Source: an uncultured archaeon
Lineage (GTDB): Archaea; Thermoproteota; Bathyarchaeia; 40CM-2-53-6; CALIRQ01
NCBI GenBank assembly: GCA_938042195.1
Contig: CALIRQ010000004.1
Coordinates: 1-64,000 of the forward strand
Direction of reading: 5' to 3'
Length of the DNA stretch: 64,000 bases
Shown here one piece after another: positions 1 to 56,820 of this stretch. A model generated the notes under the pieces. That model had not been told where the DNA came from, made no database searches, and saw only the letters and a program-made list of their open reading frames with translations. Numbering within the stretch: position 1 is the stretch's first letter; the number at the start of each line of letters is the position of its first letter. A program made the translations under genes and the position numbers.

Positions 1-48
1 GCATGGATCAACGCCTCCTTGGGCCCGAGGCCAGCCCGGGCATGGCGC

Positions 49-900
49 TCACTTCCCCAACCCGGAAATGGCTCTTGCCAATCGCCTATATTTATAGGGC
101 GTAAGGGCCACGAGAAGGGCCATGAGAAGCTCCTTTAAAAAGCCCCTCCCCTGCCCCATCTCCTTGGCTTCATACTCGAAGAGCTGAGCCGCGTTGGCAT
201 CGTTCTTTAACCATATCTCAAATAGATCGGTGAACAATGGGTAGACGATCCCATACGGGGTCATTGCGAGGGTAAAGGACTTCATGCTTGGGTCTCTTTT
301 CACCTTCATAAAAGCTTGGATCGTTTCCTTATCCAAGAACCTGCGCAATTGACGAAGTTCATATTCCTGCGTCGGTATTCCTCGAATCAGGAGGAGATCC
401 CAATTATCCTTGAACGCCTTGGCGAGCCCTTTCCCGAGTTCATGCGTTGCGAAGATGGTGTAAACGAGGCCGTTACCCTGCAACCGCCCTAAAAAATGCC
501 TTATCCTAAAGAAATTCTTGAAATCCTCCTTCGTGAACGGGGCATAGGTGGCATCGTCCATGAATAGAGCGTAAAGGTAGGCGACAGAGCCAAGTTTGGC
601 CAAGGTGGCCAAGGCAGGAGTAAGGCCGTGGGAGGAACGGATGAAGCAACATCCATCGGAGGGATAAAGGGTTCTCATGACCGATATCAAATGCCTCGCC
701 AGCGTGGTTTTTCCAGATCCCGGCGGGCCGTAGATGATTAAGTTCCGATGGAGGATGCCGTCCTCATCTGGGAAGAGGCGGTAATCGTTGATGAAGCTCT
801 TCGGCCCCCCCGCGAAGGCGTTATCCACGAAGATCCTTTCCGGGCCCGAGAATTGGTTCAGGGCCCTATTCCTTATTTCCAATACTTCCTCGAATTCCAT
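49..900 (-). CDS. P-loop ATPase of a probable mobile-element replication module
   Basis: A 283-residue nucleotide-binding protein. Walker A GPPGSGKTT is at about residues 58-66 and a Walker B-like MDD at 114-116. The C-terminal half is basic and unassigned. I start it at the ATG at 900 because GGTGAG lies 5 nt upstream; a GTG at 909 is also open. It overlaps the 3' end of the PriL-like fragment by 35 nt, so the two look like one former transcription unit. ATPase plus archaeal primase domain is a pairing seen in archaeal plasmids and integrated elements, so a replication role in a mobile element is inferred, not shown. After its stop an ATG at position 4, preceded by GGAGG, suggests another minus-strand gene leaving the window. 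Alternative: a host AAA ATPase of unknown role. Confidence 0.75.
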   Translation of the reverse strand: MEFEEVLEIRNRALNQFSGPERIFVDNAFAGGPKSFINDYRLFPDEDGILHRNLIIYGPPGSGKTTLARHLISVMRTLYPSDGCCFIRSSHGLTPALATLAKLGSVAYLYALFMDDATYAPFTKEDFKNFFRIRHFLGRLQGNGLVYTIFATHELGKGLAKAFKDNWDLLLIRGIPTQEYELRQLRRFLDKETIQAFMKVKRDPSMKSFTLAMTPYGIVYPLFTDLFEIWLKNDANAAQLFEYEAKEMGQGRGFLKELLMALLVALTPYKYRRLARAISGLGK

Positions 901-1135
901 CTTTCTCACCCAAAAAATACTCAGATGGGTTATTGATCTTTTTACATCTTTCGTCCGGGATATAGCAAAGGCCTCTCAAGCCCATCGTTTCGCAAGAGGG
1001 AGGGAGGTATCCCCCTCTGGCTATATGATCCACCTGATAGCTCGTCTTCGTTTCCTTATAATCCGGCAAGGCCTTCAAAAGCTTTTTGATTTCATCGGCA
1101 TCGGCCCCCGAGGCGAGGAGGTTGGTCACTTTCAA
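866..1135 (-). pseudogene. Truncated PriL-type primase Fe-S domain (C-terminal fragment)
   Basis: The 89-residue frame carries PPSCETMGLRGLC, then a Cys in DERC and NPSEYF. This matches the C-terminal [4Fe-4S] domain of the archaeal/eukaryotic primase large subunit. The intact PriL in this same window (55732-56820) shows the equivalent order YQVEHI, PPKCDTM, GLC, GEC, HPMAYY. The first cluster cysteine, which precedes this stretch in PriL, is absent because the frame begins inside the leader-distal CRISPR repeat: the only upstream starts are TTG at 1135 (inside the repeat) and GTG at 1129. I read it as a primase or primase-polymerase gene of a mobile element cut by the CRISPR array. It might still be translated as a small protein, but could not build the four-cysteine cluster. 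Confidence 0.7.
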
Positions 1136-1468
1136 TTCCCTGTATTATGGGATTTCCATTGCAACAGATCCTGAGGATTTTGAGGGATTCAGCCGAGATC
1201 TGGGCTTTCAATTCCCTGTATTATGGGATTTCCATTGCAACGTTCTTCTCAGCAAATGTATCGTATTCTATCAGGTTGACTTTCAATTCCCTGTATTATG
1301 GGATTTCCATTGCAACTGGGTCGCGGCGGATTCGTGGGGGCGCGTGGCCGGCGACTTTCAATTCCCTGTATTATGGGATTTCCATTGCAACGTCACTAAT
1401 TGGATGGTGGATAACGCTACTGCTTTGGCGACTTTCAATTCCCTGTATTATGGGATTTCCATTGCAAC
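1129..1468 (-). CRISPR. CRISPR array, five 37-bp repeats, four spacers
   Basis: Five identical 37-bp repeats lie at 1129-1165, 1205-1241, 1280-1316, 1355-1391 and 1432-1468. Spacers are 39, 38, 38 and 40 bp. On the minus strand the repeat begins GTTGCAATGG and ends GGGAATTGAAAG, a form usual for archaeal type I/III arrays whose crRNA 5' handle is AUUGAAAG. Transcription is therefore predicted on the minus strand with the leader to the right of 1468. The most leader-distal repeat (1129-1165) is not degenerate and runs straight into the truncated primase frame. No cas gene is visible in this window, so the array depends on loci elsewhere or is orphan. Confidence 0.97.
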
Positions 1469-1567
1469 CGAGCCTTTTCGGCCCCCTTTCCGCCAAATCC
1501 GCCCGCTTCGGGCATCGCCGAAGAGGGGCCCCTCGATTATTGATGGATTGTAGGATGCTTTATAAAG
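1469..1567 (-). promoter_or_regulatory. CRISPR leader with TATA box
   Basis: The minus-strand leader side of the array contains CTTTATAAAG at 1558-1567, about 90 bp before the first repeat, placed as expected for the array promoter. The element is palindromic and could also fire rightward. From here to 1799 I see no convincing gene: a plus-strand frame from an ATG at 1607 carries one CxxC but has no supporting signals. Confidence 0.6.
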
Positions 1568-1799
1568 ATAATCGAATTGCAAAACACGCTCCCGCTTATA
1601 GGCGACATGCGGCCCCCCTGCCTTTTCTGTATGGGTTCCCCGGGCATCATGGAGGCCATGCGGATGAGCTTTGCCCTCGGGCGCTCCAATTCATATAAAA
1701 TCTGGGCTGAAAAGGCGAGAATTATGCGGCCGATGAGGAGGGCGCTAGTTGCAAGAACCGTTTGTAGAATACCTATAAGGGCTTGAAACCCGATCCTTC

Positions 1800-54503: not shown

Positions 54504-55739
54504 TCAATCCACCGCCGGGTAAGCTTTCCCCTTGCAAACCAGAAGCAGCGCGACCGATGCGGGGAGGTCCACCGTTTCATCCTCATAGGGCCCGAAGCTC
54601 TGCCCCCCGAGCTTGAGCTTGGGGGCCTCGATCACGTGGATCCTCTCCTCCCCATCGAAGGCCGCGGCATCGAGGAAGGGCTCGAAATCCTCCACCCGCT
54701 CAATCCCCAGGGGAATGACCATCAAGCCCGTCTTCCCATTAAGGCTGCCGGGCAACCGGATGAGCCTATGCAGGTCGGTCGTCACGACGGCATCTATATT
54801 AACCGATGCGAGCTTAATGGCCCCTCGAAGGATCGCCTCCCATCCCTTGCTCCCCGCCCGCCTCCTCAGCCCCCATCCCCTCCCATCGAGCCAATCCCTC
54901 AGGAGCGAATCCCTTCCCTCCACTATTGCCTTTATCGCCTTTGGCGCCAAGCCGAGCGCCCTGAGCCCCTCCTCATCGAAACGGGCCAATATCTCGGATA
55001 TGGCCTTGGAGAGCCTCCCCGCCCAGCCCGGGGAAAGCGGCGAGGGGGTCGGCCCCCCTCCCGATGCGGCGAAGCCATGAGCGGAGGGATCCATCCCGAT
55101 CCCCATCAAATAATCCACTATCTCCCTCCTCTCCGATTCCCCCAATTTCAAAACTTCCTCGGATCTAACGTGGAGGTGATATCCCCTATGCCCCGAGAAA
55201 TAGGCGGACATCTCGGACTGGGTCATGCCGAAATCCGAATGGAGGATCTCCATGAGCTTCATGAGCTCATCCCTCGCCCTTTCTAGGCAGGATTCGCACA
55301 TCCACGCCTCCTCCCTGAGCCCCTCGGCCCCGCATTTGGGACAAGCCCTCGGGGCCGGGCCCGAGCCGGTCGCACCGCATGCGCAGGCCCATCGGTCATG
55401 CTCGAACTTGCATGGTGCATCCAAGCGATCCGCGTCTATATCGAAGCATAGCTCCGCCCCAAGCCATCCCTTCCTCTCCATCTCCGCCTCCGGATCCCTG
55501 TAGATGGCTGTGGAGTGATAGGCGTCGGAGGGGACCCTCTCCCTCAAGAACGCGATGAGCTCCTCCCCCGATGAAAAGCCCTTATGCCTAAGCATGAACT
55601 TCTCCCCGAAGAAGAGGAAGCCGAATTCCCTTCTAGCCAACTCGCTCGGCACCCTCAATTGGGTCGGCCCCCTAGCGTAATACTCGCCGAACTTCCTCTT
55701 GGCGAATGAGATGGAGAGGGCCCTCTTCCGCTCATCCAT
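54504..55739 (-). CDS. priS: DNA primase small subunit PriS
   Basis: A 411-residue catalytic primase subunit. Catalytic Asp pair D100/D102 in CFDIDAD, the zinc-knuckle module with CACG, CPKCG and CESC (about 115-165), SGHRGYHLHV and DLHRLIRLPGSLNGKTGL for nucleotide binding. ATG 55739 (MDERKRALS) overlaps the end of PriL by 8 nt. Makes primers with PriL. Confidence 0.96.
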   Translation of the reverse strand: MDERKRALSISFAKRKFGEYYARGPTQLRVPSELARREFGFLFFGEKFMLRHKGFSSGEELIAFLRERVPSDAYHSTAIYRDPEAEMERKGWLGAELCFDIDADRLDAPCKFEHDRWACACGATGSGPAPRACPKCGAEGLREEAWMCESCLERARDELMKLMEILHSDFGMTQSEMSAYFSGHRGYHLHVRSEEVLKLGESERREIVDYLMGIGMDPSAHGFAASGGGPTPSPLSPGWAGRLSKAISEILARFDEEGLRALGLAPKAIKAIVEGRDSLLRDWLDGRGWGLRRRAGSKGWEAILRGAIKLASVNIDAVVTTDLHRLIRLPGSLNGKTGLMVIPLGIERVEDFEPFLDAAAFDGEERIHVIEAPKLKLGGQSFGPYEDETVDLPASVALLLVCKGKAYPAVD

Positions 55740-56820
55740 CTCGATCGGGGCTCGGAGTGGCTTTAACAGCTTCTGTGCCCCCGGCCCGGCGGGTGCGGCG
55801 CATCCCAAGCCTCCTTTCGTAATACGCCATCGGATGCCTTATCCCGCCGCATTCGCCCTCGGGGCCGACGCAAAGCCCATGGGTCCTCATGGTATCGCAT
55901 TTCGGGGGCTTGTACCTTATGCGGCTCCCCCTCAAGCCGAATATATGCTCCACTTGATATTTGGTCTTCCTCCCATCGAAATCGGCCGAGGATTGGAAGA
56001 CCCGGATTATGTCCTCCTCGCCCAACCCGGCCCCGGCCAAGAAGGCCGTGAGGGCGAACCTGCCCATGTGGGATATATTCCTGCCATGGATGGCCCCCTC
56101 GTAGAGGCTCTTGATGCATGGCGGCATCGCCTCGAGGATCAGGCCCTTAGGCGCCTCGAGGTATTCCGCCGTGCCCCTCGCGGATTCCGCCAGCCCCCTG
56201 AGGCCGCTCACGATTGGCTTAAGGAACTCCGGCTCTCCATCTATGGGGGTTGAAAGCCTTTCGAGTATCCTCCTATAGACCTCCTCCTGTATGAGCCTGG
56301 CGAGCTCCTCCCTCGTTAGGCTCACCCATCCGCTCGATAAGATCCTATTGCAAAGCTTCCATTTCCCATGCCTTAGGGAGGCGGTGTCCTTGAGGTAATC
56401 GGCGAAGTATAGCTCAAATTCGTAGAACCTATTGGAGCGGCTCTCCCCCGCGGTCCGTATCCTCATCCCGAAGGTCCCCTCCCCTATCCTCAATATCTTC
56501 TCGGACGAATCCTCCCTGAGGAAGCCGTATGCCCTCTTGGCCTCGGCCAATGCGAAGCGCCTCTGGACCCCTTGATCCCTCACTAGGCTCATGAGCATCA
56601 GGGCGATCGGATACGATATGATCTCCATCTCCTCCTCCCCCCTCCTCCACTCCGGGATCCTCCCTTCGAGCATCGCTCCCCTAGCGCGCTCCTCGGCCTT
56701 TGCCAAGATCGGGCGGAACTCTTGGGAGGCGAGGTCCTCCAGCATCAGGCCCTTGGACTTGATGTACTCGGCCGCCTCCGCCGAGAAAGGATACTTCGCC
56801 AGGTCTATCTTCCCGAACAT
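55732..56820 (-). CDS. priL: DNA primase large subunit PriL
   Basis: A 362-residue regulatory subunit. Helical N-terminal domain, then the [4Fe-4S] domain with all four cysteines: MPPCIKSL, PPKCDTM, THGLC and EGEC, plus HPMAYY. This is the intact counterpart of the truncated domain beside the CRISPR array. Starts 3 nt after the PCNA stop. Confidence 0.96.
   Translation of the reverse strand: MFGKIDLAKYPFSAEAAEYIKSKGLMLEDLASQEFRPILAKAEERARGAMLEGRIPEWRRGEEEMEIISYPIALMLMSLVRDQGVQRRFALAEAKRAYGFLREDSSEKILRIGEGTFGMRIRTAGESRSNRFYEFELYFADYLKDTASLRHGKWKLCNRILSSGWVSLTREELARLIQEEVYRRILERLSTPIDGEPEFLKPIVSGLRGLAESARGTAEYLEAPKGLILEAMPPCIKSLYEGAIHGRNISHMGRFALTAFLAGAGLGEEDIIRVFQSSADFDGRKTKYQVEHIFGLRGSRIRYKPPKCDTMRTHGLCVGPEGECGGIRHPMAYYERRLGMRRTRRAGGTEAVKATPSPDRDG

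Follow-up and report, generated by a model that had tools for sequence, protein, structure and literature searches.

Results

A truncated primase gene abuts a CRISPR array

The window, a stretch of 64,000 nt, is the first 64 kb of a 123,977-nt contig (C4) from the genome of an uncultured archaeon that probably belongs to the class Bathyarchaeia; this genome of 1.27 Mb is assembled in 24 contigs and is 93.6% complete. The contig starts at window position 1, and the features found near this end are collected in Table 1. On the minus strand, 49–1135 holds a second PriL-type primase gene, of which only the 3′ end is left, and an ATPase gene that overlaps it. At its truncated end the primase gene is joined without a gap, as assembled, to a small CRISPR array (R1), at the last repeat of that array. 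The truncated frame and the adjoining repeat lie 0.9–1.2 kb from the contig start, with the junction at about 1.1 kb. Neither an integrase nor a capsid gene was found on the 1.1 kb left of the array, up to the contig end, no tRNA was found at the site, and no continuation of C4 was found among the other contig ends compared, which did not include those of C22–C24.

Table 1. Features at the left end of contig C4
Feature	Position	Strand	Remarks
Segment absent from congeners G022 and G023	1..1790	not assigned	contig begins at 1
P-loop (AAA+-like) ATPase, rare family	49..909	-	start ATG 900 or GTG 909
89-codon remnant, C-terminal part of PriL-type primase Fe-S domain	866..1135	-	Cys2-Cys4 kept, Cys1 and all before it missing
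Junction	1129..1135	-	3′ end of leader-distal repeat gives the first codons of the frame, TTG AAA G
CRISPR array R1	1129..1468	-	5 identical 37-nt repeats, 4 spacers of 38-40 nt
Presumed R1 leader, TATA-like TTTATAAAG	1469..1600	-	sequence read by eye
Single copy of second CRISPR repeat R2 (GTTTGTAGAATACCTATAAGGGCTTGAAAC)	1760..1789	+	divergent from R1

R1 has the properties of a CRISPR array, namely identical repeats, unique spacers of even length and a leader. The repeat, which reads GTTGCAATGGAAATCCCATAATACAGGGAATTGAAAG in minus-strand orientation, is present in five perfect copies (1129–1165, 1205–1241, 1280–1316, 1355–1391 and 1432–1468), and the array reads toward the 89-codon frame, with the leader-distal repeat at the junction. 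When up to three mismatches were allowed, the repeat was detected nowhere else in the genome and in none of the 256 other genomes of the class (257 in total); being confined to a single locus, it is not shared with a host array. No exact match to the repeat was present in viral contigs. Protospacers were not detected when two spacers were searched exactly in viral contigs, when the whole array was compared with phages and plasmids, or when all four spacers were compared with the loci examined. A cas gene search that covered Cas1 did not find it in the 93.6% complete genome.

An earlier note on the window had claimed that the last repeat runs without a gap into a PriL Fe-S frame lacking its N-terminal part and first cysteine, and this was borne out: the repeats end at 1129, and from residue 2 onward, two codons or fewer from the repeat edge, the frame resembles the PriL Fe-S domain in a profile that includes the fragment itself. 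An independent pairwise match to the full-length PriL of another genome showed 46% identity (E = 7e-17), and the match to PF04104 (E = 8e-4) scored 19.2 bits, under the 22.4 cut-off for this partial domain. The fragment corresponds to the domain from about 25 residues past Cys1 through the domain end, the Cys1 region having been lost at the junction. The note had further placed the only starts of the frame in the repeat. TTG 1135 lies inside the repeat and GTG 1129 straddles its edge, but later in-frame starts do exist (TTG 1078, TTG 1069, GTG 1033 and ATG 985), all of them within the conserved domain. The frame is open, without decay, and is closed upstream by an in-frame TAA at 1147. In its 89-aa product one of the four cysteines for the normal 4Fe-4S cluster is missing; this product is probably dead, and a transcript of the frame, if any, would be pre-crRNA read-through. 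None of the similar PriL-domain frames examined adjoins an array. Short PriL frames in G020, G014 and G223 were considered as stand-alone proteins and rejected, as they are contig-end or frameshift pieces.

The fragment has the short loop of mobile-element primases

The host's own intact PriL gene lies in the same window (55732–56820), beside those for PCNA and PriS, and its product is 39% identical to the fragment, which is therefore a second PriL copy. The stretch from a conserved His to Cys2 comprises 15 residues in 38 of the 38 cellular PriL domains of this class that were compared, and also in the yeast structure 3lgb, as counted by eye on the PDB alignment. In the fragment it comprises 10 residues. 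The same length was obtained by script count for two element-borne domains (L057 and L052), each of which has an integrase in its neighborhood. Two haloviral fusions whose annotation is small-plus-large-subunit primase (HVTV-2 and HCTV-16) share the five-residue gap in alignment, with Gln replacing His. The fragment thus carries the short loop of mobile-element PriS-PriL fusion primases (10 versus 15 residues), a mobile-type marker that was found in this analysis and is not taken from a published definition; the survey behind it drew on this class, on four element or virus sequences and on one eukaryotic structure. Fusion primases with the short loop occur in integrated elements of two related genomes, represented by L057 and L052. 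In G176 the integrated element at L057 (2–5100) has, besides a phage-type integrase, genes for a PriS-PriL-like primase (342 aa) and for an unidentified protein (654 aa).

The base composition supports a foreign source for the fragment, since its GC3 is 0.53 compared with 0.75–0.80 in host genes; that of the ATPase gene is 0.66. Against a mobile source, the Cys3-Cys4 spacing and an NPxxY-like tail are chromosomal-like, and the fragment is 35–49% identical to chromosomal PriLs versus 27–29% to the element-borne fusion types. A tree placed it near the fusion types, but on a very long branch with weak support. A match to PHROG 9660 was considered as a sign of viral origin and dropped, as chromosomal PriL matches it too. 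The frame has no N-terminal PriS-like catalytic domain, the region upstream being occupied by the array. Judged from these sequence comparisons, the fragment is likely of mobile origin.

The searches suggested in the earlier note turned up no close relative of the fragment or of the ATPase among virus and plasmid proteins, with weak P-loop matches for the ATPase; an intact gene and the array junction were not found in related genomes, nor was the distant N-terminal half of the primase found. An intact close relative of the fragment was likewise absent from the contigs of viruses and of genomes and from the records of phages and plasmids.

The ATPase belongs to a rare family with members near mobile-element genes and CRISPR loci

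The downstream P-loop ATPase gene overlaps the 89-codon frame by 35–44 nt, in agreement with what had been noted earlier. Its frame is intact and encodes 283–286 aa with the Walker A motif GPPGSGKTT; the protein may or may not be in use. Structure prediction of the protein alone gave a mean pLDDT of 40, too low to be informative. Generic P-loop matches were all that Pfam and PHROGs returned, and in comparisons with viral and genome contigs and with phage and plasmid records the matches, G031 excepted, were weak P-loop ones only. Relatives were detected in 6 of the 257 class genomes at E ≤ 1e-5 (this genome included) and, by profile search, in 7 of the 398 genomes of a phylum sample. In gene contexts that were read partly by eye from ORFs, tyrosine-recombinase-like and RFC-like genes lie near the relative in G085, a TerL-like gene lies near that in G014, the surroundings in G451 are virus-like, and an archaeal phage integrase is near the relative in G498. 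The family is patchily distributed and often found in mobile-element contexts.

Three other genomes have a relative of the ATPase near a CRISPR locus. In G031, a genome from the same order, it follows an array of the same strand at a distance of 358 nt; it lies 3 kb behind an R2 mini-array in G023, and 1.6 kb behind cas6 in G026, in a cluster with cas7, cas3 and cas5 (the last recognized by eye only). Exact-repeat scans detected no arrays near the remaining relatives, and no PriL domain was found beside any relative other than the one described here. We regard the proximity to CRISPR loci as a candidate association, that is, as a lead. Several of the relatives have peculiarities of their own. 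The G031 array (L049, 1–1894) has eight forward repeats and one reversed repeat at the contig start, after which the ATPase relative follows. The ATPase relatives in G016 (L115, 7342–9663) and G013 (L116, 2–1213) carry an apparent intein in the Walker A motif. In G023 (L048, 15918–16790) the motif is degenerate (GAPGPDLAE), and ATP binding may be lost. The G228 relative (L055, 1–4854) adjoins small membrane proteins and a basic protein without family matches, and the locus is possibly a virus.

The segment is missing from two congeners

Synteny with the two congeners sets in near 1805 for G023 and near 1831 for G022, and an AhpD-like gene and further genes occupy the place of segment 1–1790 in both; the AhpD-like gene was not found in the genome studied here. 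Because the segment is absent at the same place in both congeners, it is probably derived in this lineage, and if their arrangement is ancestral, its arrival postdates the split. No empty site was found at the locus. The single R2 copy ends 15 nt before synteny with G023 resumes, near the edge of the congener-missing segment, and in G023 itself cas1 and cas2 are followed by an R2 mini-array with 28 of 30 bases identical. At that locus (L048, 11411–12919) cas1 is split over two overlapping frames, followed by cas2 and a two-repeat R2 array. The stretch just upstream of the R2 copy at 1760–1789 resembles the G023 R2 leader more closely than did almost all of 300 shuffles.

Discussion

We conclude that the locus is probably the truncated remnant of a mobile-element replication module, fused to the array perhaps through recombination or deletion at the repeat end, a case that rests on one genome and a short fragment with a contig end 1.1 kb away. 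The primase and ATPase genes would be what is left of a replication module that belonged to an integrated virus or plasmid; the part that was lost would have comprised the N-terminal PriS-like domain and the start of the Fe-S domain. The array would have been brought beside or into the element, with loss of the 5′ part of the primase gene. Spacers are acquired at the leader end of arrays, and acquisition leaves the break of a gene at the leader-distal end unexplained; more tentatively, recombination or deletion at the repeat end may have produced the fusion. The proposal in the earlier note that the array cuts into a truncated mobile replication gene holds up in part. A truncated mobile primase is the most likely identity, supported by the loop length, GC3, the presence of a second copy, the ATPase family and the absence of the segment from two congeners. 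Counting against it are the higher identity to chromosomal PriLs, the chromosomal-like tail and Cys3-Cys4 spacing, the weakly supported tree position, the failure to find an intact relative or an empty site, the lack of a PriL domain next to the other ATPase relatives, and the open frame, which is free of decay. Array insertion as the cause is not singled out, however: the findings agree as well with a deletion or recombination ending at the repeat, or with an array that the element carried.

The carried array would be a reasonable reading of the comparisons, although we give it a minor chance. It holds that R1 travelled on a mobile element as a virus- or plasmid-borne mini-array, and that segment 1–1790, with R1, R2, the primase remnant and the ATPase, is one degraded element. 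The privacy of the R1 repeat, the failure to find Cas1 in a 93.6% complete genome, the absence of the segment from both congeners and the G031 arrangement of an array with an ATPase relative next to it are in its favor, as are the published mini-arrays of four repeats on the Bathyarchaeia viruses Chiyouvirus and Fuxivirus (PMC10848311) and the virus-borne mini-arrays and stand-alone repeats of archaeal viruses and plasmids (PMC6858448). R1 is like such mini-arrays in being short, without adjoining cas genes, among mobile-element gene neighbors and near a stand-alone repeat; unlike them, it is on a chromosomal contig, ends inside a gene, has four spacers, and has neither an adjoining viral hallmark gene nor a detected protospacer. 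No viral gene or protospacer ties R1 to a virus at this locus, and its repeat, spacers and genes are in none of the viral or plasmid records searched. Moreover, a broken primase would persist only in a virus that was already degraded, and the cas genes may sit in the missing part of the genome. A narrower form, which we also consider unlikely, is that a degraded integrated virus or plasmid had its own R1 mini-array between replication genes, and that the ATPase of this family, recurring leader-distal of arrays (G000 and G031) and near CRISPR loci also in G023 and G026, marks elements that carry arrays or that settle beside them.

An assembly chimera at the repeat or near the contig end is improbable. 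The contig begins 1.1 kb from the junction, and composition shifts there, but usual reads and k-mers are longer than the 37-nt repeat, and no second array was available for a false join because R1 is at no other place in the genome. Least probable is a functional small protein of 89 aa, with translation of a stand-alone PriL-type domain from TTG 1135 or GTG 1129: the frame is open, retains Cys2–4 and overlaps the next gene like an operon partner, but it lacks Cys1, it could start only at the end of the repeat or within the domain, and most of the short PriL frames checked elsewhere proved to be cut by contig ends or frameshifted. The earlier note had named an identical short frame kept next to arrays across many genomes as the finding that would refute a remnant; it was looked for and did not turn up, as the repeat is unique in the class and none of the related frames examined adjoins an array, which argues against a conserved small protein.

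The favored remnant of a fused replication module has partial counterparts among known systems. PriS-PriL fusion primases (PolpTN2 of plasmid pTN2, PMC3973330; HVTV-2 and HCTV-16) have the same short 10-residue loop before Cys2 with Gly-Tyr, a likeness checked for HVTV-2, HCTV-16, L057 and L052, and not for PolpTN2. Compared with them, the fragment keeps only the last ~85 residues, without the N-terminal catalytic domain, and its tail and Cys3-Cys4 spacing resemble those of chromosomal PriL. Like an orphan chromosomal CRISPR array, R1 has a leader, identical repeats and distinct spacers, and no Cas1 was found; it differs in that a truncated coding sequence directly abuts its leader-distal end and its repeat is private within the class.

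We read the locus as a fossil in which a mobile element and an immune-memory array are joined, and not as a new kind of system. The preserved junction between a CRISPR array and the replication gene of a mobile element bears on the exchange of DNA between arrays and elements, both through virus-borne arrays and through recombination at repeats. Within this class at least, loop length tells mobile-type PriL domains from chromosomal ones, even where only a fragment remains, and the repeated occurrence of a rare ATPase family close to CRISPR loci is a lead that can be tested.
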